From assembly GCA_025201345.1 (NCBI GenBank), contig JAIXMG010000005.1, forward strand, positions 806,001-870,000: 64,000 nt of DNA. Direction: 5' to 3'. Each line of letters starts with the position of its first letter. Within the stretch, counting starts at the first letter, position 1. The stretch comes from Thamnidium elegans (taxonomy: Eukaryota; Mucoromycota; Mucoromycetes; Mucorales; Mucoraceae). The notes under the pieces were generated by a model, which ran no database searches, was not told where the DNA came from, and saw only the letters and a program-made list of their open reading frames with translations. The translations under genes were made by a program, and so were the position numbers. Of the stretch, positions 1-59,231 are shown piece by piece.

Positions 1-3000
1 TGATAACGCTACTCCTGGTTTTAGTTTATCTACTAGATCTGATGGTGTTGTTACATCAGTCCCTACAGGTTCAATTGGTCAACAAACTGGTTCTAGCAAG
101 TTACCAACAGCCGATCTTGGTAACGGAAACACAATCAGTGATTATAAGGGACCTGGAACCTATACTGTCAGTCCTGGTAATGTAGTTTCTGTTGGATCCG
201 CTGGTGATTACTCATTCATCTCTGGTACTGGTGTCAGTGGTGTAAATGCTGGTAGTACTTCATTACCTTCTGCTCAGTTCCCCACTTCAACACCGATTTC
301 TGGATCTACTACTCCTGGCTTTAGTTTATCCACTCGACCTGATGGCGTTGTTACATCAATCCCTACAGGTTCAATTGGTCAACAAACTGGTTCTAGCAAG
401 TTACCAACAGCCGATCTTGGTAACGGAAACACAATCAGTGATTATAAGGGACCTGGAACCTATACTGTCAGTCCTGGTAATGTAGTTTCTGTTGGATCCG
501 CTGGTGATTACTCATTCATCTCTGGTACTGGTGTCAGTGGTGTAAATGCTGGTAGTACTTCATTACCTTCTACTCAGTTCCCCACTTCAACACCTTTCAA
601 TCCTTTGTCTGATAACGCTACTCCTGGTTTTAGTTTATCTACTAGATCTGATGGTGTTGTTACATCAGTCCCTACAGGTTCAATTGGTCAACAAACTGGT
701 TCTAGCAAGTTACCAACAGCCGATCTTGGTAACGGAAACACAATCAGTGATTATAAGGGACCTGGAACCTATACTGTCAGTCCTGGTAATGTAGTTTCTG
801 TTGGATCCGCTGGTGATTACTCATTCATCTCTGGTACTGGTGTCAGTGGTGTAAATGCTGGTAGTACTTCATTACCTTCTGCTCAGTTCCCCACTTCAAC
901 ACCGATTTCTGGATCTACTACTCCTGGCTTTAGTTTATCCACTCGACCTGATGGCGTTGTTACATCAATCCCTACAGGTTCAATTGGTCAACAAACTGGT
1001 TCTAGCAAGTTACCAACAGCCGATCTTGGTAACGGAAACACAATCAGTGATTATAAGGGACCTGGAACCTATACTGTCAGTCCTGGTAATGTAGTTTCTG
1101 TTGGATCCGCTGGTGATTATTCATTCATCTCTGGTACTGGTGTCAGTGGTGTAAATGCTGGTAGTACTTCATTACCTTCTACTCAGTTCCCCACTTCAAC
1201 ACCTTTCAATCCTTTGTCTGATAACGCTACTCCTGGTTTTAGTTTATCTACTAGATCTGATGGTGTTGTTACATCAGTCCCTACAGGTTCAATTGGTCAA
1301 CAAACTGGTTCTAGCAAGTTACCAACAGCCGATCTTGGTAACGGAAACACAATCAGTGATTATAAGGGACCTGGAACCTATACTGTCAGTCCTGGTAATG
1401 TAGTTTCTGTTGGATCCGCTGGTGATTATTCATTCATCTCTGGTACTGGTGTCAGTGGTGTAAATGCTGGTAGTACTTCATTACCTTCTACTCAGTTCCC
1501 CACTTCAACACCTTTCAATCCTTTGTCTGATAACGCTACTCCTGGTTTTAGTTTATCTACTAGATCTGATGGTGTTGTTACATCAGTCCCTACAGGTTCA
1601 ATTGGTCAACAAACTGGTTCTAGCAAGTTACCAACAGCCGATCTTGGTAACGGAAACACAATCAGTGATTATAAGGGACCTGGAACCTATACTGTCAGCC
1701 CTGGTAATGTAGTTTCTGTTGGATCCGCTGGTGATTACTCATTCATCTCTGGTACTGGTGTCAGTGGTGTAAATGCTGGTAGTACTTCATTACCTTCTAC
1801 TCAGTTCCCCACTTCAACACCTTTCAATCCTTTGTCTGATAACGCTACTCCTGGTTTTAGTTTATCTACTAGATCTGATGGTGTTGTTACATCAGTCCCT
1901 ACAGGTTCAATTGGTCAACAAACTGGTTCTAGCAAGTTACCAACAGCCGATCTTGGTAATGGAAACACAATCAGTGATTATAAGGGACCTGGAACCTATA
2001 CTGTCAGCCCTGGTATTGTAGTTTCTGTTGGATCCGCTGGTGATTACTCATTCATCTCTGGTACTGGTGTCAGTGGTATAAATGCTGGTAGTACTTCATT
2101 ACCTTCTGCTCAGTTCCCCACTTCAACACCGATTTCTGGATCTACTACTCCTGGCTTTAGTTTATCCACTCGACCTGATGGCGTTGTTACATCAATCCCT
2201 ACAGGTTCAATTGGTCAACAAACTGGTTCTAGCAAGTTACCAACAGCCGATCTTGGTAATGGAAACACAATCAGCGATTATAAAGGACCTGGTGTTTACA
2301 CTGTCAGCCCTGGTAATGTAGTTTCTGTTGGATCCGCTGGTGATTACTCATTCATCTCTGGTACTGGTGTCAGTGGTGTAAATGCTGGTAGTACTTCATT
2401 ACCTTCTACTCAGTTCCCCACTTCAACACCTTTCAATCCTTTGTCTGATAACGCTACTCCTGGTTTTAGTTTATCTACTAGATCTGATGGTGTTGTTACA
2501 TCAGTCCCTACAGGTTCAATTGGTCAACAAACTGGTTCTAGCAAGTTACCAACAGCCGATCTTGGTAACGGAAACACAATCAGTGATTATAAGGGACCTG
2601 GAACCTATACTGTCAGTCCTGGTAATGTAGTTTCTGTTGGATCCGCTGGTGATTATTCATTCATCTCTGGTACTGGTGTCAGTGGTGTAAATGCTGGTAG
2701 TACTTCATTACCTTCTACTCAGTTCCCCACTTCAACACCTTTCAATCCTTTGTCTGATAACGCTACTCCTGGTTTTAGTTTATCTACTAGATCTGATGGT
2801 GTTGTTACATCAGTCCCTACAGGTTCAATTGGTCAACAAACTGGTTCTAGCAAGTTACCAACAGCCGATCTTGGTAACGGAAACACAATCAGTGATTATA
2901 AGGGACCTGGAACCTATACTGTCAGTCCTGGTAATGTAGTTTCTGTTGGATCCGCTGGTGATTATTCATTCATCTCTGGTACTGGTGTCAGTGGTGTAAA

Positions 3001-5735
3001 TGCTGGTAGTACTTCATTACCTTCTACTCAGTTCCCCACTTCAACACCTTTCAATCCTTTGTCTGATAACGCTACTCCTGGTTTTAGTTTATCTACTAGA
3101 TCTGATGGTGTTGTTACATCAGTCCCTACAGGTTCAATTGGTCAACAAACTGGTTCTAGCAAGTTACCAACAGCCGATCTTGGTAACGGAAACACAATCA
3201 GTGATTATAAGGGACCTGGAACCTATACTGTCAGCCCTGGTAATGTAGTTTCTGTTGGATCCGCTGGTGATTACTCATTCATCTCTGGTACTGGTGTCAG
3301 TGGTGTAAATGCTGGTAGTACTTCATTACCTTCTACTCAGTTCCCCACTTCAACACCTTTCAATCCTTTGTCTGATAACGCTACTCCTGGTTTTAGTTTA
3401 TCTACTAGATCTGATGGTGTTGTTACATCAGTCCCTACAGGTTCAATTGGTCAACAAACTGGTTCTAGCAAGTTACCAACAGCCGATCTTGGTAACGGAA
3501 ACACAATCAGTGATTATAAGGGACCTGGAACCTATACTGTCAGTCCTGGTAATGTAGTTTCTGTTGGATCCGCTGGTGATTATTCATTCATCTCTGGTAC
3601 TGGTGTCAGTGGTGTAAATGCTGGTAGTACTTCATTACCTTCTGCTCAGTTCCCCACTTCAACACCGATTTCTGGATCTACTACTCCTGGCTTTAGTTTA
3701 TCCACTCGACCTGATGGCGTTGTTACATCAATCCCTACAGGTTCAATTGGTCAACAAACTGATTCTAGCAAGTTACCAACAGCCGATCTTGGTAATGGAA
3801 ACACAATCAGCGATTATAAAGGACCTGGTGTTTACACTGTCAGCCCTGGTAATGTAGTTTCTGTTGGATCCGCTGGTGATTACTCATTCATCTCTGGTAC
3901 TGGTGTCAGTGGTGTAAATGCTGGTAGTACTTCATTACCTTCTACTCAGTTCCCCACTTCAACACCTTTCAATCCTTTGTCTGATAACGCTACTCCTGGT
4001 TTTAGTTTATCTACTAGATCTGATGGTGTTGTTACATCAGTCCCTACAGGTTCAATTGGTCAACAAACTGGTTCTAGCAAGTTACCAACAGCCGATCTTG
4101 GTAATGGAAACACAATCAGCGATTATAAAGGACCTGGTGTTTACACTGTCAGCCCTGGTAATGTAGTTTCTGTTGGATCCGCTGGTGATTACTCATTCAT
4201 CTCTGGTACTGGTGTCAGTGGTGTAAATGCTGGTAGTACTTCATTACCTTCTGCTCAGTTCCCCACTTCAACACCGATTTCTGGATCTACTACTCCTGGC
4301 TTTAGTTTATCCACTCGACCTGATGGCGTTGTTACATCAATCCCTACAGGTTCAATTGGTCAACAAACTGGTTCTAGCAAGTTACCAACAGCCGATCTTG
4401 GTAACGGAAACACAATCAGTGATTATAAGGGACCTGGAACCTATACTGTCAGTCCTGGTAATGTAGTTTCTGTTGGATCCGCTGGTGATTATTCATTCAT
4501 CTCTGGTACTGGTGTCAGTGGTGTAAATGCTGGTAGTACTTCATTACCTTCTACTCAGTTCCCCACTTCAACACCTTTCAATCCTTTGTCTGATAACGCT
4601 ACTCCTGGTTTTAGTTTATCTACTAGATCTGATGGTGTTGTTACATCAGTCCCTACAGGTTCAATTGGTCAACAAACTGGTTCTAGCAAGTTACCAACAG
4701 CCGATCTTGGTAATGGAAACACAATCAGTGATTATAAGGGACCTGGAACCTATACTGTCAGCCCTGGTAATGTAGTTTCTGTTGGATCCGCTGGTGATTA
4801 CTCATTCATCTCTGGTACTGGTGTCAGTGGTATAAATGCTGGTAGTACTTCATTACCTTCTGCTCAGTTCCCCACTTCAACACCGATTTCTGGATCTACT
4901 ACTCCTGGCTTTAGTTTATCCACTCGACCTGATGGCGTTGTTACATCAATCCCTACAGGTTCAATTGGTCAACAAACTGGTTCTAGCAAGTTACCAACAG
5001 CCGATCTTGGTAACGGAAACACAATCAGTGATTATAAGGGACCTGGAACCTATACTGTCAGCCCTGGTAATGTAGTTTCTGTTGGATCCGCTGGTGATTA
5101 TTCATTCATCTCTGGTACTGGTGTCAGTGGTGTAAATGCTGGTAGTACTTCATTACCTTCTGCTCAGTTCCCCACTTCAACACCGATTTCTGGATCTACT
5201 ACTCCTGGCTTTAGTTTATCCACTCGACCTGATGGCGTTGTTACATCAATCCCTACAGGTTCAATTGGTCAACAAACTGATTCTAGCAAGTTACCAACAG
5301 CCGATCTTGGTAATGGAAACACAATCAGCGATTATAAAGGACCTGGTGTTTACACTGTCAGCCCTGGTAATGTAGTTTCTGTTGGATCCGCTGGTGATTA
5401 CTCATTCATCTCTGGTACTGGTGTCAGTGGTGTAAATGCTGGTAGTACTTCATTACCTTCTACTCAGTTCCCCACTTCAACACCGATTTCTGGATCTACT
5501 ACTCCTGGCTTTAGTTTATCCACTCGACCTGATGGCGTTGTTACATCAATCCCTACAGGTTCAATTGGTCAACAAACTGATTCTAGCAAGTTACCAACAG
5601 CCGATCTTGGTAACGGAAACACAATCAGTGATTATAAGGGACCTGGAACCTATACTGTCAGTCCTGGTAATGTAGTTTCTGTTGGATCCGCTGGTGATTA
5701 TTCATTCATCTCTGGTACTGGTGTCAGCGGTGCCG
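1..5735 (+). repeat. Block 1: 19 tandem coding repeats of 300/309 bp
   Basis: Two unit types alternate irregularly. Type A is 309 bp (103 aa, with the linker FNPLSDNATPGFSLSTRSDG and VPTG) and type B is 300 bp (100 aa, with ISGSTTPGFSLSTRPDG and IPTG). Anchored on the NAGSTSLPS segment, units start near 246, 546, 855, 1155, 1464, 1773, 2082, 2382, 2691, 3000, 3309, 3618, 3918, 4227, 4527, 4836, 5136 and 5436, preceded by one partial unit. The order is A B A B A A A B A A A A B A B A B B B. Units are almost identical at DNA level, synonymous sites included. The few variants (GTY/GVY, QTG/QTD, gtaacgg/gtaatgg) recur in different unit combinations, which indicates recombination between units. 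Confidence 0.95.
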
Positions 5736-8700
5736 ATGCTGGAACTGCATCTCTTCCGTCTGTTAACTTACCAACTATTACCCTTGGGGATGGTGATGTT
5801 ATTACTGGTTATACTGGTCCTGGAACATACACTGATTCTGGTGGACATCCTATCTCTGTCGGCTCTGATAATCTTGTCACTCCTATCGAAACTGGATCTG
5901 CTCACAATCCAACTAACGCCAATTCAAACTTACCCACTGTAACTCTTGGTGATGGTGATGTGATTACTGGCTATACTGGTCCTGGTACTTATAAGGATTC
6001 TGGTGGACATCCTATCTCTGTCGGCTCTGATAATCTTGTCACTCCTATCGAAACTGGATCTGCTCACAATCCAACTAACGCCAATGCCAATTTGCCAACT
6101 GTAACTCTTGGTGATGGTGATGTGATTACTGGCTATACTGGTCCTGGTACTTATAAGGATTCTGGTGGACATCCTATCTCTGTCGGCTCTGATAATCTTG
6201 TCACTCCTATCGAAACTGGATCTGCTCACAATCCAACTAACGCCAATGCCAATTTGCCAACTGTAACTCTTGGTGATGGTGATGTGATTACTGGCTATAC
6301 TGGTCCTGGTACTTATAAGGATTCTGGTGGACATCCTATCTCTGTCGGCTCTGATAATCTTGTCACTCCTATCGAAACTGGATCTGCTCACAATCCAACT
6401 AACGCCAATGCCAATTTGCCAACTGTAACTCTTGGTGATGGTGATGTGATTACTGGCTATACTGGTCCTGGTACTTATAAGGACTCGGGTGGACATCCTA
6501 TCTCTGTCGGCTCTGATAATCTTGTCACTCCTATCGAAACTGGATCTGCTCACAATCCAACTAACGCCAATGCCAATTTGCCAACTGTAACTCTTGGTGA
6601 TGGTGATGTGATTACTGGCTATACTGGTCCTGGTACTTATAAGGATTCTGGTGGACATCCTATCTCTGTCGGCTCTGATAATCTTGTCACTCCTATCGAA
6701 ACTGGATCTGCTAATAACCCAACTAATGCCAATTCAAACTTACCTACTGTAACTCTTGGTGATGGTGATGTGATTACTGGTTATACTGGTCCTGGTACTT
6801 ATAAGGACTCGGGTGGACATCCTATCTCTGTCGGCTCTGATAATCTTGTCACTCCTATCGAAACTGGATCTGCTCACAATCCAACTAACGCCAATTCAAA
6901 CTTACCCACTGTAACTCTTGGTGATGGTGATGTGATTACTGGCTATACTGGTCCTGGTACTTATAAGGATTCTGGTGGACATCCTATCTCTGTCGGCTCT
7001 GATAATCTTGTCACTCCTATCGAAACTGGATCTGCTAATAACCCAACTAATGCCAATTCAAACTTACCTACTGTAACTCTTGGTGATGGTGATGTGATTA
7101 CTGGTTATACTGGTCCTGGTACTTATAAGGACTCGGGTGGACATCCTATCTCTGTCGGCTCTGATAATCTTGTCACTCCTATCGAAACTGGATCTGCTCA
7201 CAATCCAACTAACGCCAATTCAAACTTACCCACTGTAACTCTTGGTGATGGTGATGTGATTACTGGCTATACTGGTCCTGGTACTTATAAGGATTCTGGT
7301 GGACATCCTATCTCTGTCGGCTCTGATAATCTTGTCACTCCTATCGAAACTGGATCTGCTCACAATCCAACTAACGCCAATGCCAATTTGCCAACTGTAA
7401 CTCTTGGTGATGGTGATGTGATTACTGGCTATACTGGTCCTGGTACTTATAAGGACTCGGGTGGACATCCTATCTCTGTCGGCTCTGATAATCTTGTCAC
7501 TCCTATCGAAACTGGATCTGCTCACAATCCAACTAACGCCAATGCCAATTTGCCAACTGTAACTCTTGGTGATGGTGATGTGATTACTGGCTATACTGGT
7601 CCTGGTACTTATAAGGATTCTGGTGGACATCCTATCTCTGTCGGCTCTGATAATCTTGTCACTCCTATCGAAACTGGATCTGCTAATAACCCAACTAATG
7701 CCAATTCAAACTTACCCACTGTAACTCTTGGTGATGGTGATGTGATTACTGGTTATACTGGTCCTGGAACATACACTGATTCTGGTGGACATGTATTATC
7801 AGTCGGATCAGATAAAGGTATTACACCTGTTCAGTCTGGATCGATTCAAAAGCTTACAACTTCCAATGCCAACTTACCTACTGTAACCCTTGGTGATGGT
7901 GATGTTATAAGTGATTATACTGGTCCTGGTATCTATACTGATTCGGGTGGACATGCCATATCTGTTGGTTCTGATAATCTTGTTACTCCCATTGAGACTG
8001 CGCCAAAAGATACACAAGCTGCTTCGACTATCAAATTACCCGAGACAAGTAAATTGCCGAATATTAATCTTGGGTATGGAAATACTCTTTCAGGGTATAA
8101 AGGACCTGGCATTTACACCATTAGTCCTGGGAACGTAATTTCTTTGGGAGATGGCGGAGCTTTCTCTTTCGTGTCCGGCACTGGTGCTAATGGTATGAGT
8201 GGAGGAAGTGTATCTGTTCCTGTTCTCAATCTACCTGGTATTACCCTTGGAAACGGAAAGGTTATAACTGGGTACACTGGTCCAGGTACTTATACCGATT
8301 CATCTGGTAATGTTGTATCAATTGGCTCTAATGGCGCTATTGCTACAGTAACTTCTGATTCTAAAACAATTGGTCAAGGCTTCCCTGGCATTACTTTACC
8401 TTCTGTCAATCTTCCAACATTAAGTTTAGGAGGAGGTATTAATCTCGATCATTATAAGGGACCCGGTGTATATACTATCAGTCCGGGAAACGTAGTGTCC
8501 GTTGACGCTAGCGGCTCTTTCTCCTTTATTTCTGGAAGCGGTGCAGATGGTAATAAACAAGGAAGTTTAGCTCTTCCTAGTTTTTCATTACCTACAGTTA
8601 GCCTTGCTGGTGGTATCTCTCTTGATGCTTTCACAGGTCCTGGTGTTTATACTTACAGTCCTGGTAATGTCGTATCAATCGATGCAAATGGTGGCGTTAA

Positions 8701-11700
8701 CTGGTTGCAAGGAGGCCCTAAAACAGTCTCTGGCGGTGGATTTACTTTTCCTACTTCCGTCTTACCTAGTATTACATTACCAAATTTGAATTTACCGAGC
8801 GTAAACTTAAATTTTGGTAACGATATTCCAAATTATCATGGTCCTGGAATTTATACTATAAGCCCTGGAAACGTTGTGTCTATAGACAAGGGCGGTTCAT
8901 ACTCGTACCTTATGGGTAGTGGGTCTTTCGGTGTAAAATCGGGTAGTATTTCTCTTCCTACTTATAGCTTACCTGGTATAACACTTCAGAATGGTATCTC
9001 TGTTCCAAAGTACAGTGGTCCTGGAATTTATACTGTCAGTCCTGGTAATGTTCTTTCAATCGGCTCAGATGGTGGTTATAAATGGTTACAAGGCGGCCCT
9101 CAAACACTTTCTGGTGGCGGTATCACACTTCCGTCTTATGACTTGTCGGCTAATATTCCCAGTCCTAGTGGAACTTATTTTAATGGTGTCAACTTTAAGT
9201 TTCCGTTTAATATTCCCAGCTTTAATGGTCCCGGTTTCTACAGTCTCAGTCCTGGAAATGTAGTTGAGGTTCATGCGGATGGTTCTTATAGTTTCGTCTC
9301 TGGTGGCCCACCAAATCCAAATGGCGGCAACTTATCTTTTCCTAGTGTCTCTTTACCCAAAATCAATTTCCCTACATTGAACCTTGGAAGTGGTATTACT
9401 CTTGGTGACTATAAGGGTCCTGGTTTATATACCATTAGTCCTGGTAATGTTGTATCTATCAGTCCTGGTGGTTCATTCTCGTATATTTCTGGTAGTGGTG
9501 CTAATGGCAGTCAAGGTGGTAGTATTGCTCTTCCTAATCTTTCTTTACCAACTCTCAGTCTTGCTGGTGGTATCTCTCTTGATGCTTTCACAGGTCCTGG
9601 TGTTTATACTTACAGTCCTGGTAACGTCGTATCAGTCGATGGAAATGGTGGTGTTAACTGGTTACGAGGTGGCCCTCAATCAGCCTCTGGTGGTGGTTTT
9701 ACATTCCCAACTCCAGCTTTGCCTAGTATCAGTTTACCTAGTTTAAACTTACCAAACGCAAACTTGGGCGCTGGTTACAGTATCCCTAATTTTCATGGTC
9801 CGGGAATCTATACTATAAGTCCCGGAAACGTAGTGTCAGTTGCTGCTAATGGTGCATATACATATCTCATGGGTAGTGGTTTCTTAGGTGCCACGACTGG
9901 TAGCATGTCTCTTCCTACTTATAGTTTACCTGGTATCACACTTCAAAATGGTATCTCTGTTCCAAAGTATAGTGGTCCTGGCATTTATACCATCAGTCCT
10001 GGTAATGTCCTTTCAATCGGTGCTGGTGGTCGTTATAAATGGTTACAAGGTGGTCCTCAAACTCTTTCTGGAGGTGGTATCACACTTCCATCTTACGATT
10101 TGTCAGGCGCCGTTCCTACGTCCAATGGGTGGTATATTAATGGTGTCAACTACAAATTCCCTTTTGATATCCCCAGCTTTAATGGTCCTGGTTTTTATAG
10201 TCTTAGTCCCGGTAATGTTGTTCAAGTTCACGTTGATGGTTCATACACGTTTGTATTGGGTGGTCCCCCTAACCCTAATGCTGGTAAATTATCTTTCCCT
10301 AGCATTACGTTACCCAAAATCAATTTCTCTACATTGAACCTTGGAAGTGGTATTACTCTTGGTGACTATAAGGGTCCTGGTTTATATACCATTAGTCCTG
10401 GTAATGTTGTATCTATCAGTCCTGGTGGTTCATTCTCGTATATTTCTGGTAGTGGTGCTAATGGCAGTCAAGGTGGTAGTATTGCTCTTCCTAATCTTTC
10501 TTTACCAACTCTCAGTCTTGCTGGTGGTATCTCTCTTGATGCTTTCGCTGGCCCCGGTGTTTATACTTACAGTCCTGGTAACGTCGTATCAATCGGTGCA
10601 AATGGTGCTGTTAACTGGTTGCAAGGAGGCCCTAAAACAGCCTCTGGCGGTGGGTTTACTTTCCCTACTCCAGCTTTACCCAGTATCACTTTACCTAGCG
10701 TAAGTTTGCCAAACGCTGGATTTGGTGTTGGCTCTTCAATTCACAACTACCATGGTCCCGGTATTTATACAATCAGTCCAGGCAATGTCGTCTCCGTTGC
10801 TGCTGATGGTTCGTATACATATCTCCTTGGTAGTGGTTTCTTAGGTCTTCGAACAGGTAGTATGTCTCTTCCTACTTATAGTTTACCTGGTATAACACTT
10901 CAAAATGGTATCTCTGTTCCAAAGTACAGTGGTCCTGGCATTTATACTGTCAGTCCTGGTAATGTTCTTTCGATCGGTGCTGGTGGTCGTTATAAATGGT
11001 TACAGGGTGGTCCTCAAACGTTACCTGGTGGTGGTATTACTCTTCAATCGGTTGATATGTCTGGTGCTCTTCCTACCTTCAGCGGAAGATTTATCAATGG
11101 CGTTGATTTTGAATTCCCTTTCGATATTCCAGGTTTTAACGGTCCTGGTTTCTACAGTCTCAGCCCTGGTAATGTAGTTCAAGTTCATGCTGATGGCTCA
11201 TATGTATTTATATCTGGTGGTCCCCCCAATCCCAGTGGTGGTAAGATTACTTATCCTAGTGTCACCTTACCCAATATAGATTTCCCTACATTGAATCTTG
11301 GAAGTGGTATTACTCTTGGTGACTATAAGGGTCCTGGTTTATATACCATTAGTCCTGGTAATGTTGTATCTATCAGTCCTGGTGGTTCATTCTCGTATAT
11401 TTCTGGTAGTGGTGCTAATGGCAGTCAAGGTGGTAGTATTGCTCTTCCTAATCTTTCTTTACCAACTCTCAGTCTTGCTGGTGGTATCTCTCTTGATGCT
11501 TTCGCTGGCCCCGGTGTTTATACTTACAGTCCTGGTAACGTCGTATCAATCGGTGCAAATGGTGCTGTTAATTGGCTTGCAGGTGGTCCTCAACCTGTCT
11601 CCAATGGTGGGTTTACTTTCCCTACTCCAGCTTTACCCAGTATCACTTTACCTAGCGTAAGTTTGCCAAACGCTGGATTTGGTGTTGGCTCTTCAATTCA

Positions 11701-14700
11701 CAACTACCATGGTCCCGGTATTTATACAATCAGTCCAGGCAATGTCGTCTCCGTTGCTGCTGATGGTTCGTATACATATCTCCTTGGTAGTGGTTTCTTA
11801 GGTCTTCGAACAGGTAGTATGTCTCTTCCTACTTATAGTTTACCTGGTATAACACTTCAAAATGGTATCTCTGTTCCAAAGTACAGTGGTCCTGGCATTT
11901 ATACTGTCAGTCCTGGTAATGTTCTTTCGATCGGTGCTGGTGGTCGTTATAAATGGTTACAGGGTGGTCCTCAGTCATTACCTGGCGGTGATTTCACTCT
12001 TCCATCATATGATATGTCTGGTGTCCCTCCTATGCCTTTGGAAACCTATATTGGTGGTGTTCACTTTATATTCCCATTTGATGTCCCAAGTTTCAACGGT
12101 CCTGGTTTCTACACTCTCAGTCCTGGTAATATAATTCAAGTTCATATTGATGGTTCATATATCTTTATCTCTGGTGGTCCACCAAATCCAAGCGGTGGTA
12201 AAATTACTTATCCTAGTGTAAGTTTACCTAATGTACATTACTCTACATTGAATCTTGGCGGAGGTGTCAGTATTGATAAATATAAGGGCCCTGGTGAGTA
12301 TACTCTTGGTTCTGGCAACGTGGTGTCTGTTGCTCCTGGTGGTTCATTCTCGTTTGTCTCTGGTAGTGGTACTAATGGTGTTATAAGTGGTAGTATTACT
12401 CTTCCTGATCTTTCTTTACCAACTCTCAGTCTTGCTGGTGGTATCTCTCTTGATGCTTTCGCTGGCCCCGGTGTTTATACTTACAGTCCTGGTAATGTCG
12501 TATCAATCGGTGCAAATGGTGCTGTTAATTGGCTTGCAGGTGGTCCTCAACCTGTCTCCAATGGTGGGTTTACTTTCCCTACTCCAGCTTTACCCAGTAT
12601 TACTTTACCTACTGTAACTTTACCCAACGCAAACTTTGGTATCGGTTACAATATTCGTAACTTCCATGGTCCTGGAATCTATACTATTAGTGCTGGAAAT
12701 GTACTCTCAGTTGCTGCTGATGGTTCCTATACCTATCTTATGGGTAATGGTTTCTTAGGCGCCAAGACAGGTAGTATGTCTCTTCCTACTTATACTTTAC
12801 CTTCTATTACACTTCAAGGCGGTATCTCTGTTCCAAAGTACAGTGGTCCTGGCATTTATACTGTCAGTCCTGGTAATATTATTTCAATCGGTAGCGGTGG
12901 TGGCTATAAATGGTTACAGGGTGGTCCTCAGTCATTACCTGGTGGTGATTACACTCTTCCTTCATACGATCTGTCTGGTGCTCCTCCTTTGCCCGTGGAC
13001 ACTTATATTAATGGTGTTCACTTTGAATTCCCCTTTGATGTCCCAAGTTTTACTGGTCCCGGTTTCTACATTCTCAGTCCTGGTAATATAATTCAAGTTC
13101 ATATTGATGGTTCATATATCTTTATCTCTGGTGGTCCCCCCGATAGTAAGATCTCATACCCTAGTGTTACTTTACCAAATTTCAGTCTATCTACACTAAA
13201 TCTTGGTGGAGGTGTCAGTATTGATAAATATAAGGGCCCTGGTGAGTATACTCTTGGTTCTGGCAACGTGGTGTCTGTTGCTCCTGGTGGTTCATTCTCG
13301 TTTGTCTCTGGTAGTGGTACTAATGGTGTTATAAGTGGTAGTATTACTCTTCCTGATCTTTCTTTACCAACTCTCAGTCTTGCTGGTGGTATCTCTCTTG
13401 ATGCTTTCGCTGGCCCCGGTGTTTATACTTACAGTCCTGGTAATGTCGTATCAATCGGTGCAAATGGTGCTGTTAATTGGCTTGCAGGTGGTCCTCAATA
13501 TGCTCCCGGTGGTGGATTTATTTTCCCTACTCCCGATTTACCCAGTATCGCTTTACCTACTGTAACTTTACCCAACGCAAACTTTGGTATCGGTTACAAT
13601 ATTCGTAACTTCCATGGTCCTGGAATCTATACTATTAGTGCTGGAAATGTACTCTCGGTAGCTGCTGATGGTTCCTATACCTATCTTATGGGTAATGGTT
13701 TCTTTGGTGCCAAGACAGGTAGTATGTCTCTTCCTACTTATAGTTTGCCTTCTATTACACTTCAAGGCGGTATCTCTGTTCCAAAGTACAGTGGTCCTGG
13801 CATTTATACAGTCAGTCCTGGTAATGTCCTTGAGATTGAAGCCGATGGTCGTTATGAATGGTTACAAGGCGGACCTCAAACACTAGACGGTGGTGGTATT
13901 ACTTTGCCTTCATACTCTGTAGCTGCGGAACCTAACCCAACTAGCACAATTATCAATGGTGTCAACTTTAAGTTCCCTTTCAATATTCCTGAATTTAAGG
14001 GGCCTGGTTTCTATAGTCTCAGTCCTGGTAACGTAGTTCAAGTTCATCACGATGGTTCTTATGTATTTGTTATGGGAGGCCCTCCTGAAGGCAGTAGCTC
14101 ACCTACTACTAGTACTAGTCCTGGTCTTCCTTCTCTTGGTGGCTCAATTACTTTACCTAATTTGTCTTTGCCCTATCTCAACTTGCCTAATAATGTTCGA
14201 ATTACTGGCTACACTGGTCCCGGTGTTTACTCTCTTGGTTTCAACACAGTGGTATCTATTAGTCCCAACGGTCAATATAGTTATGTTCATGGCAGTTTAT
14301 TCTTTGGTGCTAACTCTGGTATTGTCAATTTACCTACTGCTTCGTTCCCTACACTCAGTTTTGCTGGTAATACTCAAATCCCTAACTATAAGGGTCCTGG
14401 TGTATATACCGTCAGCCCTGGTAATGTTCTCTCGCTTGACTCTGATGGTAGTATTAATTGGTTACAAGGTGGTCCCGACTCCGTTGTTGCCAAGGCTACA
14501 TCTACAGCTCAAGCTATTGCTGCCACAACTACAGTTGCATTACCTTCGGTTACTTACCCTGGTATAAACGTTCCTTTTGCAGGAAGCATTAGTGCTTACA
14601 CTGGAGCTGGCGTGTATACTATAAATGCTCAGCAAGTAATCACCATTAGTTCTAACGGTGCTTACTCGTTTATCCTTGGTAGCGGTGCATTTGGTTTAAA

Positions 14701-15238
14701 AAATGGCAACTTGATTCTTCCTAATATACATTACCCTACTGTATCTCTTCCTGATGGCTTCAAGGTACCTAGTTACTCTGCTCCTGGTACTTATACAGCT
14801 AGTCCTGGTAATGTTGTCTCCATCGGTTCTAACGGTGATTTCTCTTGGATTTCAGGTGGACCTGTTGCTCCTAAAGCAGGATTAGCTACTACAATCAACA
14901 ACATCAACTACAATTTCCCATTCACTATCCCTAATTTCACAGGTGCTGGTGTCTATACTCTCAGTAGTGGTAATGTAGTTAAAGTCAACGGAGATGGTTC
15001 ATACTCTTTCACGTCTGGAGGTCCTCCTGCTTTGAGGGCTGCTGCTGCTAATAATATTGATTACTCCGAGTCTAACCAACAAGCTTCTACTACTGCTTCT
15101 AAAGGTTTTGTACTCCCTGGATTCTCATTCCCATCCTTTTCTCGTAGATCTGTCTCTGAAGATTCAGGTTCTGCCGAAAATATCAAGGATAGCAAAAACC
15201 AAAACAACTTTTTCAAAAACGTTCTTTCTTTATTCTAG
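2..15238 (+). CDS. Giant Gly/Ser/Pro-rich tandem-repeat protein (5'-partial)
   Basis: The reading frame is open from base 2 to a TAG at 15236-15238, giving 5,078 visible residues without an intron; the start lies left of the window. The core module is a Tyr-containing GPG(T/I/V)YT(V/I)SPGNVVS(V/I) segment followed by a G-x-Y/F-S-F/Y strand-like stretch and a Ser/Leu/Pro linker. Three architectures follow each other: about 19 units of 100/103 residues, 14 units of 54 residues, then six super-units of about 319 residues each holding five modules. I see no Cys anywhere, few charged residues, no membrane segment and no GPI-type hydrophobic tail; the last 45 residues are polar and basic (SRRSVSEDSG... 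to NVLSLF). I do not recognise the family. A cell-wall, spore-coat or matrix protein is plausible from composition and alternating strand/turn repeats, but this is inference; a signal peptide would lie outside the window. Confidence 0.88.
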   Translation, partial: DNATPGFSLSTRSDGVVTSVPTGSIGQQTGSSKLPTADLGNGNTISDYKGPGTYTVSPGNVVSVGSAGDYSFISGTGVSGVNAGSTSLPSAQFPTSTPISGSTTPGFSLSTRPDGVVTSIPTGSIGQQTGSSKLPTADLGNGNTISDYKGPGTYTVSPGNVVSVGSAGDYSFISGTGVSGVNAGSTSLPSTQFPTSTPFNPLSDNATPGFSLSTRSDGVVTSVPTGSIGQQTGSSKLPTADLGNGNTISDYKGPGTYTVSPGNVVSVGSAGDYSFISGTGVSGVNAGSTSLPSAQFPTSTPISGSTTPGFSLSTRPDGVVTSIPTGSIGQQTGSSKLPTADLGNGNTISDYKGPGTYTVSPGNVVSVGSAGDYSFISGTGVSGVNAGSTSLPSTQFPTSTPFNPLSDNATPGFSLSTRSDGVVTSVPTGSIGQQTGSSKLPTADLGNGNTISDYKGPGTYTVSPGNVVSVGSAGDYSFISGTGVSGVNAGSTSLPSTQFPTSTPFNPLSDNATPGFSLSTRSDGVVTSVPTGSIGQQTGSSKLPTADLGNGNTISDYKGPGTYTVSPGNVVSVGSAGDYSFISGTGVSGVNAGSTSLPSTQFPTSTPFNPLSDNATPGFSLSTRSDGVVTSVPTGSIGQQTGSSKLPTADLGNGNTISDYKGPGTYTVSPGIVVSVGSAGDYSFISGTGVSGINAGSTSLPSAQFPTSTPISGSTTPGFSLSTRPDGVVTSIPTGSIGQQTGSSKLPTADLGNGNTISDYKGPGVYTVSPGNVVSVGSAGDYSFISGTGVSGVNAGSTSLPSTQFPTSTPFNPLSDNATPGFSLSTRSDGVVTSVPTGSIGQQTGSSKLPTADLGNGNTISDYKGPGTYTVSPGNVVSVGSAGDYSFISGTGVSGVNAGSTSLPSTQFPTSTPFNPLSDNATPGFSLSTRSDGVVTSVPTGSIGQQTGSSKLPTADLGNGNTISDYKGPGTYTVSPGNVVSVGSAGDYSFISGTGVSGVNAGSTSLPSTQFPTSTPFNPLSDNATPGFSLSTRSDGVVTSVPTGSIGQQTGSSKLPTADLGNGNTISDYKGPGTYTVSPGNVVSVGSAGDYSFISGTGVSGVNAGSTSLPSTQFPTSTPFNPLSDNATPGFSLSTRSDGVVTSVPTGSIGQQTGSSKLPTADLGNGNTISDYKGPGTYTVSPGNVVSVGSAGDYSFISGTGVSGVNAGSTSLPSAQFPTSTPISGSTTPGFSLSTRPDGVVTSIPTGSIGQQTDSSKLPTADLGNGNTISDYKGPGVYTVSPGNVVSVGSAGDYSFISGTGVSGVNAGSTSLPSTQFPTSTPFNPLSDNATPGFSLSTRSDGVVTSVPTGSIGQQTGSSKLPTADLGNGNTISDYKGPGVYTVSPGNVVSVGSAGDYSFISGTGVSGVNAGSTSLPSAQFPTSTPISGSTTPGFSLSTRPDGVVTSIPTGSIGQQTGSSKLPTADLGNGNTISDYKGPGTYTVSPGNVVSVGSAGDYSFISGTGVSGVNAGSTSLPSTQFPTSTPFNPLSDNATPGFSLSTRSDGVVTSVPTGSIGQQTGSSKLPTADLGNGNTISDYKGPGTYTVSPGNVVSVGSAGDYSFISGTGVSGINAGSTSLPSAQFPTSTPISGSTTPGFSLSTRPDGVVTSIPTGSIGQQTGSSKLPTADLGNGNTISDYKGPGTYTVSPGNVVSVGSAGDYSFISGTGVSGVNAGSTSLPSAQFPTSTPISGSTTPGFSLSTRPDGVVTSIPTGSIGQQTDSSKLPTADLGNGNTISDYKGPGVYTVSPGNVVSVGSAGDYSFISGTGVSGVNAGSTSLPSTQFPTSTPISGSTTPGFSLSTRPDGVVTSIPTGSIGQQTDSSKLPTADLGNGNTISDYKGPGTYTVSPGNVVSVGSAGDYSFISGTGVSGADAGTASLPSVNLPTITLGDGDVITGYTGPGTYTDSGGHPISVGSDNLVTPIETGSAHNPTNANSNLPTVTLGDGDVITGYTGPGTYKDSGGHPISVGSDNLVTPIETGSAHNPTNANANLPTVTLGDGDVITGYTGPGTYKDSGGHPISVGSDNLVTPIETGSAHNPTNANANLPTVTLGDGDVITGYTGPGTYKDSGGHPISVGSDNLVTPIETGSAHNPTNANANLPTVTLGDGDVITGYTGPGTYKDSGGHPISVGSDNLVTPIETGSAHNPTNANANLPTVTLGDGDVITGYTGPGTYKDSGGHPISVGSDNLVTPIETGSANNPTNANSNLPTVTLGDGDVITGYTGPGTYKDSGGHPISVGSDNLVTPIETGSAHNPTNANSNLPTVTLGDGDVITGYTGPGTYKDSGGHPISVGSDNLVTPIETGSANNPTNANSNLPTVTLGDGDVITGYTGPGTYKDSGGHPISVGSDNLVTPIETGSAHNPTNANSNLPTVTLGDGDVITGYTGPGTYKDSGGHPISVGSDNLVTPIETGSAHNPTNANANLPTVTLGDGDVITGYTGPGTYKDSGGHPISVGSDNLVTPIETGSAHNPTNANANLPTVTLGDGDVITGYTGPGTYKDSGGHPISVGSDNLVTPIETGSANNPTNANSNLPTVTLGDGDVITGYTGPGTYTDSGGHVLSVGSDKGITPVQSGSIQKLTTSNANLPTVTLGDGDVISDYTGPGIYTDSGGHAISVGSDNLVTPIETAPKDTQAASTIKLPETSKLPNINLGYGNTLSGYKGPGIYTISPGNVISLGDGGAFSFVSGTGANGMSGGSVSVPVLNLPGITLGNGKVITGYTGPGTYTDSSGNVVSIGSNGAIATVTSDSKTIGQGFPGITLPSVNLPTLSLGGGINLDHYKGPGVYTISPGNVVSVDASGSFSFISGSGADGNKQGSLALPSFSLPTVSLAGGISLDAFTGPGVYTYSPGNVVSIDANGGVNWLQGGPKTVSGGGFTFPTSVLPSITLPNLNLPSVNLNFGNDIPNYHGPGIYTISPGNVVSIDKGGSYSYLMGSGSFGVKSGSISLPTYSLPGITLQNGISVPKYSGPGIYTVSPGNVLSIGSDGGYKWLQGGPQTLSGGGITLPSYDLSANIPSPSGTYFNGVNFKFPFNIPSFNGPGFYSLSPGNVVEVHADGSYSFVSGGPPNPNGGNLSFPSVSLPKINFPTLNLGSGITLGDYKGPGLYTISPGNVVSISPGGSFSYISGSGANGSQGGSIALPNLSLPTLSLAGGISLDAFTGPGVYTYSPGNVVSVDGNGGVNWLRGGPQSASGGGFTFPTPALPSISLPSLNLPNANLGAGYSIPNFHGPGIYTISPGNVVSVAANGAYTYLMGSGFLGATTGSMSLPTYSLPGITLQNGISVPKYSGPGIYTISPGNVLSIGAGGRYKWLQGGPQTLSGGGITLPSYDLSGAVPTSNGWYINGVNYKFPFDIPSFNGPGFYSLSPGNVVQVHVDGSYTFVLGGPPNPNAGKLSFPSITLPKINFSTLNLGSGITLGDYKGPGLYTISPGNVVSISPGGSFSYISGSGANGSQGGSIALPNLSLPTLSLAGGISLDAFAGPGVYTYSPGNVVSIGANGAVNWLQGGPKTASGGGFTFPTPALPSITLPSVSLPNAGFGVGSSIHNYHGPGIYTISPGNVVSVAADGSYTYLLGSGFLGLRTGSMSLPTYSLPGITLQNGISVPKYSGPGIYTVSPGNVLSIGAGGRYKWLQGGPQTLPGGGITLQSVDMSGALPTFSGRFINGVDFEFPFDIPGFNGPGFYSLSPGNVVQVHADGSYVFISGGPPNPSGGKITYPSVTLPNIDFPTLNLGSGITLGDYKGPGLYTISPGNVVSISPGGSFSYISGSGANGSQGGSIALPNLSLPTLSLAGGISLDAFAGPGVYTYSPGNVVSIGANGAVNWLAGGPQPVSNGGFTFPTPALPSITLPSVSLPNAGFGVGSSIHNYHGPGIYTISPGNVVSVAADGSYTYLLGSGFLGLRTGSMSLPTYSLPGITLQNGISVPKYSGPGIYTVSPGNVLSIGAGGRYKWLQGGPQSLPGGDFTLPSYDMSGVPPMPLETYIGGVHFIFPFDVPSFNGPGFYTLSPGNIIQVHIDGSYIFISGGPPNPSGGKITYPSVSLPNVHYSTLNLGGGVSIDKYKGPGEYTLGSGNVVSVAPGGSFSFVSGSGTNGVISGSITLPDLSLPTLSLAGGISLDAFAGPGVYTYSPGNVVSIGANGAVNWLAGGPQPVSNGGFTFPTPALPSITLPTVTLPNANFGIGYNIRNFHGPGIYTISAGNVLSVAADGSYTYLMGNGFLGAKTGSMSLPTYTLPSITLQGGISVPKYSGPGIYTVSPGNIISIGSGGGYKWLQGGPQSLPGGDYTLPSYDLSGAPPLPVDTYINGVHFEFPFDVPSFTGPGFYILSPGNIIQVHIDGSYIFISGGPPDSKISYPSVTLPNFSLSTLNLGGGVSIDKYKGPGEYTLGSGNVVSVAPGGSFSFVSGSGTNGVISGSITLPDLSLPTLSLAGGISLDAFAGPGVYTYSPGNVVSIGANGAVNWLAGGPQYAPGGGFIFPTPDLPSIALPTVTLPNANFGIGYNIRNFHGPGIYTISAGNVLSVAADGSYTYLMGNGFFGAKTGSMSLPTYSLPSITLQGGISVPKYSGPGIYTVSPGNVLEIEADGRYEWLQGGPQTLDGGGITLPSYSVAAEPNPTSTIINGVNFKFPFNIPEFKGPGFYSLSPGNVVQVHHDGSYVFVMGGPPEGSSSPTTSTSPGLPSLGGSITLPNLSLPYLNLPNNVRITGYTGPGVYSLGFNTVVSISPNGQYSYVHGSLFFGANSGIVNLPTASFPTLSFAGNTQIPNYKGPGVYTVSPGNVLSLDSDGSINWLQGGPDSVVAKATSTAQAIAATTTVALPSVTYPGINVPFAGSISAYTGAGVYTINAQQVITISSNGAYSFILGSGAFGLKNGNLILPNIHYPTVSLPDGFKVPSYSAPGTYTASPGNVVSIGSNGDFSWISGGPVAPKAGLATTINNINYNFPFTIPNFTGAGVYTLSSGNVVKVNGDGSYSFTSGGPPALRAAAANNIDYSESNQQASTTASKGFVLPGFSFPSFSRRSVSEDSGSAENIKDSKNQNNFFKNVLSLF
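5736..8030 (+). repeat. Block 2: 14 tandem coding repeats of 162 bp
   Basis: The unit is 54 aa: NLPTVTLGDGDVITGYTGPG followed by TYKDSGGHPISVGSDN and LVTPIETGSA(H/N)NPTNAN(A/S). Copies of the GTAACTCTTGGTGATGGTGA segment start near 5939, 6101, 6263, 6425, 6587, 6749, 6911, 7073, 7235, 7397, 7559 and 7721, with diverged edge units near 5777 and 7883. The unit keeps the GPGTY core of block 1, but a shorter SGGHPISVGS segment replaces SPGNVVSVGS. Edge units are diverged and the inner ones near-identical, as expected for a repeat array growing by unequal exchange. Confidence 0.95.
8415..14100 (+). repeat. Block 3: six super-repeats of about 957 bp, five modules each
   Basis: A super-unit of about 319 aa begins with (S/N)LG(S/G)G(I/V) and a (H/D/K)YKGPG module and recurs near 8422, 9379, 10336, 11293, 12249 and 13197, a spacing of about 948-957 bp. 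Each holds five ordered modules recognisable by GPG(V/L/E)YT..SPGNVVS, FxGPGVYTYSPGNVVS ending in NWLxGGP, HGPGIYTIS, SGPGIYTVSPGNVLSI ending in KWLQGGPQ, and GPGFYSLSPGN(V/I)(V/I)xVHxDGSY ending in SGGPP. The middle copies (9.4-12.2 kb) share stretches identical over several hundred bases while flanks differ. A shorter, more diverged set of modules follows to about 15,070. Confidence 0.9.

Positions 15239-55472: not shown

Positions 55473-55514
<42 letters not shown>
55473..55514. repeat. 42-base poly-T tract before the methyltransferase gene
   Basis: An uninterrupted T-run about 60 bp upstream of the methyltransferase ATG, followed by further T-rich sequence to 55563. It probably acts as a promoter element or transcription start region and is prone to length variation. 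Confidence 0.9.
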
Positions 55515-55577: not shown

Positions 55578-58500
55578 ATGACAAATAACAACATTAACCG
55601 AATTGGACTTTTGTTAGGTTCAACTCCATCTTCACCTATACCTATACCTAATATGGCGCCAGAAAAACCAAAGAGAGCTGCCGACAAAGACACCAGACAA
55701 GTTCCTCCTGCTACTGCTGCGACAGCTGTTATAAAGAAAGCTTGCGTTGAAATGAGTGATGCACAAGTGAATGAAATCGTTGAAATGTTGGGTACAATAC
55801 TTGCAAAAGTAAAGCAAGCTATTTCGGATAAAAAAGGTAATTCGATAAAAAAAAAAAAGTAAAAAAGAAAGTTTAGCTTAATAGTATGAATGATTTTTGA
55901 TGTAGATACTTATGCACCTTCAGCCGCTGTCACCTTTTTATTGCGCAGAATGGATGTGGACACGCAAGATTTATTATCAGAAGATTTATATTGTTTAATG
56001 ACAGGATTTATGACAGTTTACGTTAGTTTTATTCAAGAAGTATTTTTACACAAATTTAAAGATTTTATGAGATTATTCTCCAGTCATGATTCACTTTTAA
56101 ATGGTAAAGATAATGACAACGATCAGCCCTTTCTCTGGTTATATCTTTCTTATGATCGCTCTAATAATCTATCAATATTAAATGATTTACATAAACAATT
56201 ATTACCAAAAAGATACGACGCCAATTTCATCTTGTCAAGAATAGACGCCATCTTTTCGAAATTCTATACAACTCATTTCTTGGAGGCTTATGTTCAAAAG
56301 CACCAAAAAGATCATGGTCAATTCTACACTCCTCAACCCATTATTAACTTTATGTGGGATAAATGCGCCACATTACCATTGTTAACTCAACATTTACGAG
56401 AAAAAACGACCATGTTACGTGTATTTGATCCTTGTCTTGGTATGGGCTCCTTTTTATGTGAATTTTTAACGCGATTTATAAAAGCGTGTAAATTTACTGT
56501 TTGGAATGATCCTGTAAAATTGACAACATTATTAGCAAGAGATATACCAGATCATATTTGGGGAATTGAAATTGATCCCTTCGCTTATCAACTGTGTAAA
56601 ATCAATATGATGGTTCATTTATTTCCTTTATATGAACGATTAAAAGAATTGGGTGTTGATCTGAAACCAGGTATGATCAATCGTCTCAGGCTCTTTTGTA
56701 ACGATTCGCTCAAGTTACGCGAAGATACCAATCCATTTATTTCAGATACCGCCACTCAAATGGATCCGTTTGAAAAAGCTTGTTTAAAAGCATTACGCAA
56801 TGCTTCTCAAAAATTTGATTTCATTGTAACAAATCCGCCTTATATGATTCGAAAAACAGGTTATGTAGCTCAACCAGATCCCGTAATATATGACGAAGAA
56901 AAATTAGGTGGAAGAGGATCACAAGCTTACCTTTATTTTATGTGGGTTGCTCTGCAGCGCTGTGATGATGTTACAGGTCAAATATGTTTGATTACTCCCA
57001 GTCAATGGACCGTATTAGAATTTGCTCAACATATCAGAGAATGGATATGGAAAAACTGTAAACTTTTAGACATGTACGAATTCGAGCCATATAAAGTATG
57101 GCCAAAGGTTCAAACTGATTCTCTTGTATTTCGTATTTGCAAACGTACCACTACTTTACCAAACACTGATCATACACTCTATGTTAGAAACACTTCAAGA
57201 AAAATTTCACTTACTGAGCTATTGGAACTTTACAAGAAATTTGATCCCAGTGATCCGCTCACCAATAAAGATATCAAATACAAATTAGCTCCTCTTGATG
57301 AATCAAACCGTATATTAACTGCAAAGCATGCTTCATTTGCCTTTGTTTTACCTACTGCCTCTTGCTTAGAAGAACTCAATTCAATTACTGCTCATTTACC
57401 TCGTTTATGTGATGGAGAACAAAACAGGTCCGGTGATGATTCTCCGTCCAATGAACCTACTCCTTTAAACTGGAATAGAGGACCCAATACAAACCCCGTA
57501 TATTCACTTGTCGTAAGAACAAGTTGGGCTAAAGAAACATTTGGTGAGGAAGCTTGCGATCGTTGGTTAAAACCTTGTTTTTATTGGAACGGCAAGACTA
57601 TTAGTTCCTCTACAGGTGGTGGTAAAGAAGGTGAGTTCTGGAAAGAAAGAGATCCATTACGATTAAGTAGGAAAGAAATGTCTGCTGCAGAAGCCTACTG
57701 GCCCTATTGTAATTTAGATAATGACAACCCACACGTTGCATTTTATTCTATGATTATGGTCAATAAAGAAGATGCCGACAAATTAAAAAAGGAATTTGAT
57801 GAATATGGTCAAGGATCTCCAATTGCTTCGTTATATACTTATTTGCGTGAAGCACGTCAAGCATTACAGGGAGATAAAGTTGAAAAGGAAATCGCTCATT
57901 GTCAGTATAACAAGTGCGGTACAGAAGTACCAGTCAAGATCGTCCATCCGATCAATTGTGGTTACTATACTAGATCACAACCTCGTCAACGATTCTTTGT
58001 AGATAAAACCAGGGCATCTGTGACCAATCAATGCATTTATTTTACCATTAAACCAGATTATCCATGGCAAGATCCAGACTATTACTGTGGTCTTTTGAAC
58101 AGTACTTTACTTCAATTTTTTAGTAAAGTGCATTGTTGTTACGATCAGCAAGGCCGTATGCGATTCTTTGGAAGATTAATGGCTTATATTCCATTTGCAC
58201 CACCACCTTCAGCAGAATTTATGGGATACATGGCAACGTTTGTCCAAGGTATGACAGAGGCACGTACTTGGATCTATAGTTTTGTACGTCATACACCAAG
58301 TGGTCACCGTCTAATGGAACGAGTACGAAACTGTGAATGGCACTTGTCTCCTACCGAAATTGACGTTGTACGTCAATTCTGTCCACCCGAAGACTGGATC
58401 CTTCAACCTGACACCAGTCTTTCTACTTTCACATGTCCACCGCATCTGGAATGGATACCCGAACTTGTGCAACAGACTACATTAACCAGCAAAAGAGCAG

Positions 58501-59231
58501 TTGTAAACATCTTTACAAAATTACTAAAGATCGCTTCCTTATTTCAATTCGCAATAGATCAAATGATTTATCATATTTATAATATTCCTACTCATTTACA
58601 GCTGGATGTAGAATCAGATTTAAACTTACAAGGCTTAAGAAAGGAATGGGAAGACCGAAGTGAGTTGCTTTATAATGATGATGATCCTCAGGATTGGTTT
58701 GAACGTGTCATGGAGTTTGCTACTTCTTTTTCAAGTGAAACTAATTTAAGTAGTACGCCAGATAATAATGATCTTACTACTATTACTGCTGATGCTCATG
58801 TTACTGCTAATTTTAGTCTCGGTAAAAAAAAGCGTGCTTCGTCAATTTCGGCAGGCGAAAATAAGCGTTCTCGTACTTTAGATGCATTAAATCATACCTT
58901 TGAAAATCACAATAATACCTATCAAAGCTCGACTGCCACGACAGAGATATCTCAAACTTTCACTGTTGGCAATACCAACACACATCAAATTCCTCATACG
59001 AAACACGATAGCGTGCCTTTATTACCTCTATATACTAATAATAATTCGCTAGATGCAAACGATACAAATACGAAGGACATGGAAGATGTCATTGTTACCG
59101 ATACCACTGTTACCTTACAGACTCAACCTACACCCATTCCAAACAAAAAAAAATTGATGCTTGAAGAGGAATCTCAAGATATTGATATTGTTACTATTAC
59201 ACCTGAACAAGATTTGACATCTAGCGAGTAA
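55578..59231 (+). CDS. N6-adenine DNA methyltransferase, bacterial type I/IIG-like
   Basis: Two exons (55578-55836, 55906-59231) join in frame and give 1,194 residues; a later ATG at 55653 is an alternative start. A hydrophilic N-terminus and a helical domain precede an amino-methyltransferase core: GQFYTPQPIINFM (motif X, near residue 224), VFDPCLGMGSFLCEF (motif I, SAM binding, near 260), IWGIEIDPFAYQL (motif II), LRLFCNDSL (motif III) and FIVTNPPYM (catalytic motif IV, near 396). A long C-terminal half includes YCGLLNSTLLQFFSK (near 816), which resembles the target-recognition region of TaqI/Eco57I-type enzymes. The order X-I-IV-TRD is that of gamma-class N6-adenine methyltransferases. I see no nuclease motif. 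A basic KKKRASS..ENKRSR cluster near 1060 could be a nuclear signal. Activity and target are inferred. Confidence 0.85.

Follow-up and report, generated by a model that had tools for sequence, protein, structure and literature searches.

A probable metB gene in Thamnidium elegans encodes a putative N6-adenine DNA methyltransferase with no nuclease domain that can be recognised

What is a methyltransferase of bacterial restriction type doing in the genome of a fungus? The question is raised by a gene of Thamnidium elegans that lies in a 64,000-nucleotide stretch (the window; positions 806001-870000 of contig JAIXMG010000005.1, here C45) of a 34.1-Mb, 64-contig assembly, and that runs on the + strand from an ATG at 55578 to a stop codon ending at 59231. 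A first-pass annotation had taken its product for an N6-adenine DNA methyltransferase with the layout of type I/IIG or PglX-like enzymes, and domains and predicted fold both back an assignment to the type IIG/PglX/CamA kind. We are rather confident that the gene is this fungus's metB, a nuclear gene whose product is a one-chain N6-adenine DNA methyltransferase that lacks a nuclease and descends from a prokaryotic enzyme of the type IIG/CamA kind. We infer that the protein acts on DNA, in the nucleus and at a target sequence, and that it is orthologous to MetB of Mucor. Enzymes of this kind are already known, MetB having been published in 2024 (Lax et al., 2024; PMC11258239); the window gene is therefore real but not new, and the novelty implied by the annotation has to be given up in the light of that account.

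The gene consists of two open exons which, joined across an inferred 69-bp intron, give a predicted spliced product of 1194 amino acids. Searched against Pfam (reporting matches with E<=1), this protein exceeds the gathering cut-offs of Eco57I (residues 303-485, E 7.2e-22) and N6_Mtase (PF02384; residues 202-324, E 3e-15; 56.8 bits against a curated cut-off of 20.4), a similarity to methyltransferase families that is far beyond chance. MmeI_Mtase (E 5.8e-6) and TaqI_C (E 0.0026) match below their cut-offs, so that two of the three families that the annotation had proposed as a check are clearly present and the third only below its cut-off. The MT-A70 family (PF05063) is absent from the matches of the protein and present at other loci of the genome, which bears out the earlier claim of a different class. 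Motifs X, I and IV and the sequence LLNSTLLQFF (full-length residue 816) are all in the protein, as the annotation had read them. NPPY is motif IV, the catalytic motif of N6-adenine methyltransferases. In an alignment of 33 relatives with the window protein (A3), G137, T141, D174, P175, G178, G180, F182, N309, P310 and P311 (exon-2 numbering) are invariant over all 34 rows; within motif I, which mostly reads DPACGSG in the relatives, the window protein replaces the near-invariant C177 with L and S179 with M. Eco57I, N6_Mtase and MmeI_Mtase are found in 34/34 rows and TaqI_C in 24/34 (E<=0.01).

The predicted fold points the same way. CamA stands first among the fold matches listed, and the C-terminal half weakly resembles the recognition domain of CamA in fold. 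DNA methyltransferases or restriction-modification proteins account for 49 of the 50 matches listed, the remaining one (2f8l) being a putative methyltransferase with no named substrate; none is named as an RNA- or protein-methyltransferase, an outcome in keeping with the structural expectation of the annotation. The best single-sequence match in the PDB is BsaXI (E 6e-4). Among family collections, PADLOC returned 34 matched families, most of the 25 listed being methyltransferases of types I, II and IIG, MAD2 and PglX, and PHROGs returned four, two of which are named DNA methyltransferase. Every NCBIfam match is far under its cut-off.

All relatives that we found are distant. By tblastn, 11 records were found among plasmids and 19 among phages, each below 33% identity and covering at most 28% of the query, and in a scan of genome contigs the best 80 of at least 116 relatives among 589 stretches had best-segment identities of 18-32%. 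Their matches concentrate in the methyltransferase core, with marginal stretches alone near residue 700-790. We considered and rejected a viral origin: in viral contigs a single-sequence scan produced one stretch that fitted the pattern and none that was confirmed, a profile scan of 307 stretches confirmed 34, whose identities were again a distant 18-32%, and the giant-virus methyltransferases in the viral fold list are general fold relatives. For alignment, the relatives were filtered to 50, leaving out near-duplicates (L012, L099, L123) and those whose matched stretches all began at query residue 260 or later or that had fewer than 560 residues after motif X. Removal by eye of 13 of the 50 for misplaced anchors or low score left 37 relatives plus the window protein (A2), and removal of four plasmid rows then gave A3, whose relatives come from genome contigs (28) and viral contigs (5). 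A recognition-half alignment (A4) holds 22 of these 33, picked by hand, and an N-terminal alignment (A5) holds 32, four of them from viral contigs, the truncated L101 being omitted. In the tree of 34 rows, the window protein sits on a branch of length 3.07, is unusual in its letter composition, and stands beside two Bacteroidota proteins (L018 and L043) with support of 93/82, which is below star level; its placement is unsure, and we draw no donor from it.

Many relatives carry a restriction nuclease at the N-terminus. HSDR_N is recognised in 16 and HSDR_N_2 in 13 of the 32 relatives in A5 (E<=0.01); a strict PD-ExK pattern occurs in nine of them and a loose one, which plainly takes in chance matches, in 24. 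In the spliced window protein Pfam (E<=1) finds neither a nuclease nor a helicase domain, although a very divergent nuclease could escape such a search; the strict pattern occurs nowhere in the protein and the loose one is likewise absent from its first 220 residues. Motif X also lies nearer the N-terminus (residue 224) than in most full-length relatives. An ancestor may have carried a nuclease that was later lost. The two nearest relatives nevertheless have long N-termini in which no nuclease family is recognised (the family scan covering L018), and this counts against a straightforward scenario of loss.

The identification as metB follows published description and domain criteria. Lax et al. 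gave the name MetB to a Mucor PF02384 protein and reported it as responsible for asymmetric 6mA (N6-methyladenine in DNA), its deletion lowering 6mA by 70-75% and abolishing the AAA6mACA motif while symmetric sites were kept; they proposed an ancient horizontal transfer, the fungal clade often being less than 30% identical to bacteria (PMC11258239). The finding is cited in a later paper (PMC12695648, 2025) and a review (PMC13297926, 2026). They identified the family by PF02384, and the window protein scores above the curated cut-off of this domain. To this we add a consideration of our own, not one of Lax et al.: no rival type I/IIG-like gene able to be metB was found. A protein search of the assembly hit a single place, the gene itself. 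Six-frame searches, which a gene split by many introns could escape, gave three places for PF02384, namely the window gene and two others which, from the order of Pfam matches and the sequence, we take to be HemK/PrmC-like and TRM11-like, and two for PF07669, the second HemK-like and below the cut-off. The window gene is thus the only type I/IIG-like methyltransferase found in the genome, beside a separate MT-A70 set.

MT-A70 enzymes, in the Mta1 complex, are described as fungal writers of DNA 6mA (PMC11258239; PMC13297926). PF05063 matches five places in this genome, three of them over the cut-off (L005, L006 and L007). DPPW is present at L005, L006, L008 and L009 and absent at L007; L009 and L006 are one gene, and L008 is below the Pfam cut-off. 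With three MT-A70-type loci bearing DPPW (L005, L006, L008), Thamnidium elegans probably therefore has the Mta1-type symmetric machinery as well.

How might the enzyme work? The window protein very probably methylates adenines of the genome that encodes it. Most likely, its putative C-terminal target-recognition domain would read a short, non-palindromic site; the target adenine would flip into a pocket in which NPPY positions it, and S-adenosylmethionine held by motifs X and I would donate the methyl group. The product would be 6mA on one strand, which would have to be renewed after every replication.

Other readings of the gene deserve consideration. It could stem from a separate, later acquisition from bacteria and recognise a target other than that of MetB. 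Lax et al. describe such a second transfer, in clade 2 of Glomeromycota (PMC11258239), and our likeness to MetB is drawn from the published description; both points favour this reading. We regard a separate acquisition as unlikely, however, given that an identity of 50-80% is reported for clade 2 against 18-32% to the relatives listed here, that the branch is very long (3.07), and that the assembly yields a single such gene. Still less do we favour the idea that a CamA-like orphan methyltransferase was captured independently, so that the protein would be distinct from MetB and would have a target sequence of its own; were this true, early-diverging fungi would have a third system for writing 6mA.

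It is also conceivable that a methyltransferase of this fold now acts on RNA or protein. HemK/PrmC enzymes carry NPPY and have a substrate of the RNA/protein type rather than DNA. The motif alone leaves the substrate undecided, and the HemK/PrmC-like frames of this genome share it, but Eco57I and N6_Mtase are the top Pfam families, the protein also has motif X and a C-terminal region that appears to be of recognition type, and the fold matches listed are, with one exception, to DNA enzymes; together with the loss of most 6mA reported on deletion of the Mucor family member (PMC11258239), this makes such a switch very unlikely. The annotation had offered three roles, of which an additional writer and a restriction-type methylase without a nuclease fit our results and genome defence finds no support. 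Among the relatives, many are restriction enzymes or fit models of defence systems, but with no nuclease or helicase domain found by Pfam, no strict PD-ExK pattern and ordinary neighbours we give an active restriction-type or defence enzyme almost no weight. Finally, the domain is prokaryotic in type, as bacterial contamination or a chimeric assembly would have it. Yet the gene sits inside a 1.35-Mb contig, where exon 2 maps to 861908-865228, flanked within the window by eukaryotic genes on either side; an intron is predicted; and no close relative appears among the matches listed from the collections searched (prokaryotic, plasmid, phage and viral). In ten other frames of the window Pfam finds EF3 elongation factor, COPI alpha subunit, SPT2, MBOAT, SPRY, HLH, WD40 and others. 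EF3 is a marker of fungi. An artefact of this sort is barely credible, and the annotation's picture of an intron-containing gene among ordinary fungal genes stands as to the eukaryotic neighbours, the intron being a splice-site prediction.

The features of the gene that we take to be metB are collected in the table.

Features of the methyltransferase gene, in window coordinates
Feature	Position	Strand	Remarks
Exon 1	55578..55836	+	86 codons plus 1 base; Pro/Ala/Lys-rich N-terminus
Inferred intron GTAATT...TGTAG, 69 bp	55837..55905	+	splice-site reading; two longer GT-AG alternatives
Exon 2	55906..59231	+	methyltransferase, putative target-recognition region, C-terminal helices, polar tail, stop
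N6_Mtase (PF02384) match	56250..56618	+	C45:862250-862618; 49.4 bits, six-frame genome search
Motif X, GQFYTP	56316..56333	+	full-length residue 224; G137, T141 invariant in A3
Motif I, DPCLGMGSF	56427..56453	+	full-length residue 261; D, P, G, G, F invariant in A3
Eco57I methylase (PF07669) match	56553..57101	+	C45:862553-863101; 82 bits, six-frame genome search
Motif IV, NPPY	56832..56843	+	full-length residue 396; N309, P310, P311 invariant in A3
Weak TaqI_C-like stretch in putative target-recognition region	57978..58130	+	E 0.0018, below cut-off; includes LLNSTLLQFF
C-terminal helices	58491..58736	+	predicted H862-890, H895-904, H908-915, H927-943; block pLDDT (predicted local distance difference test) 70-90
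Basic stretch KKKRASSISAGENKRSR in polar tail	58824..58874	+	label by eye

The intron junction and the start codon are predictions: GT-AG alternatives of 87 and 90 bp likewise preserve the frame, and exon 2 alone is an open frame of 1113 codons with its own ATG within the putative intron. No known domain was found by Pfam in the part encoded by exon 1. A run of 41 T bases (55474-55514) lies about 60 bases upstream of the ATG, with more T-rich stretches up to it. The basic stretch KKKRASSISAGENKRSR is a possible nuclear-localisation signal; a search for three consecutive K/R residues gave no match. Elsewhere in the window, a + strand frame at 2-15238 runs open from the window edge through 5078 codons and is Ser/Thr/Gly-rich where read, with long tandem repeats of a 309-bp unit (18.8 copies, 1-5732) and a 162-bp unit (13.8 copies, 5765-8000). 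It possibly encodes a giant repetitive surface protein; for its first 3000 residues Pfam names DUF4938 and DUF7600, neither of them through an individual stretch that passes.

How does the protein compare with known systems? Its motif order (X, I, IV) is that of type IIG enzymes such as BsaXI and DrdV, of type IIL MmeI and of type I HsdM. Type IIG enzymes have a nuclease in the same chain, whereas no nuclease domain was found here. HsdM relies on its partner HsdS for recognition, while the window protein keeps a putative recognition region in its own chain. It is not a PglX by the NCBIfam standard (29.1 bits against a cut-off of 500), and of the 10 window proteins scanned with Pfam none matches a BREX family. 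MT-A70 enzymes belong to another Pfam family, carry DPPW and occupy separate loci in this genome. CamA, the orphan 6mA methyltransferase of Clostridioides difficile, is described as having a catalytic part (1-320) and a recognition part (320-577) and the target CAAAAA (PMC8187626). At 577 residues it is far shorter than the 1194-residue window protein, a single-sequence search with which (E<=1) did not retrieve it. By our own comparison of the published descriptions, CamA and Mucor MetB appear alike in having A-rich, one-strand targets. As described, MetB of Mucor lusitanicus shares with the window protein PF02384, a fungal genome, separateness from the MT-A70 enzymes, a C-terminal region that in the window protein appears to be of recognition type, and a low level of identity to relatives from bacteria; the two differ in that the MetB recognition domain was assigned to MmeI/PF20466 by HHpred (PMC11258239), whereas the window protein has no PF20466 hit and finds CamA first by fold. 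That a restriction-type methyltransferase without a recognisable nuclease can write 6mA on eukaryotic chromosomes, a bacterial module turned epigenetic enzyme, is a point already made for MetB in 2024. Our contribution is a further assembly in which the gene occurs once, together with a predicted fold closest to that of CamA, which, as an orphan enzyme with a non-palindromic, A-rich target, offers a template for testing how MetB-type enzymes read theirs.
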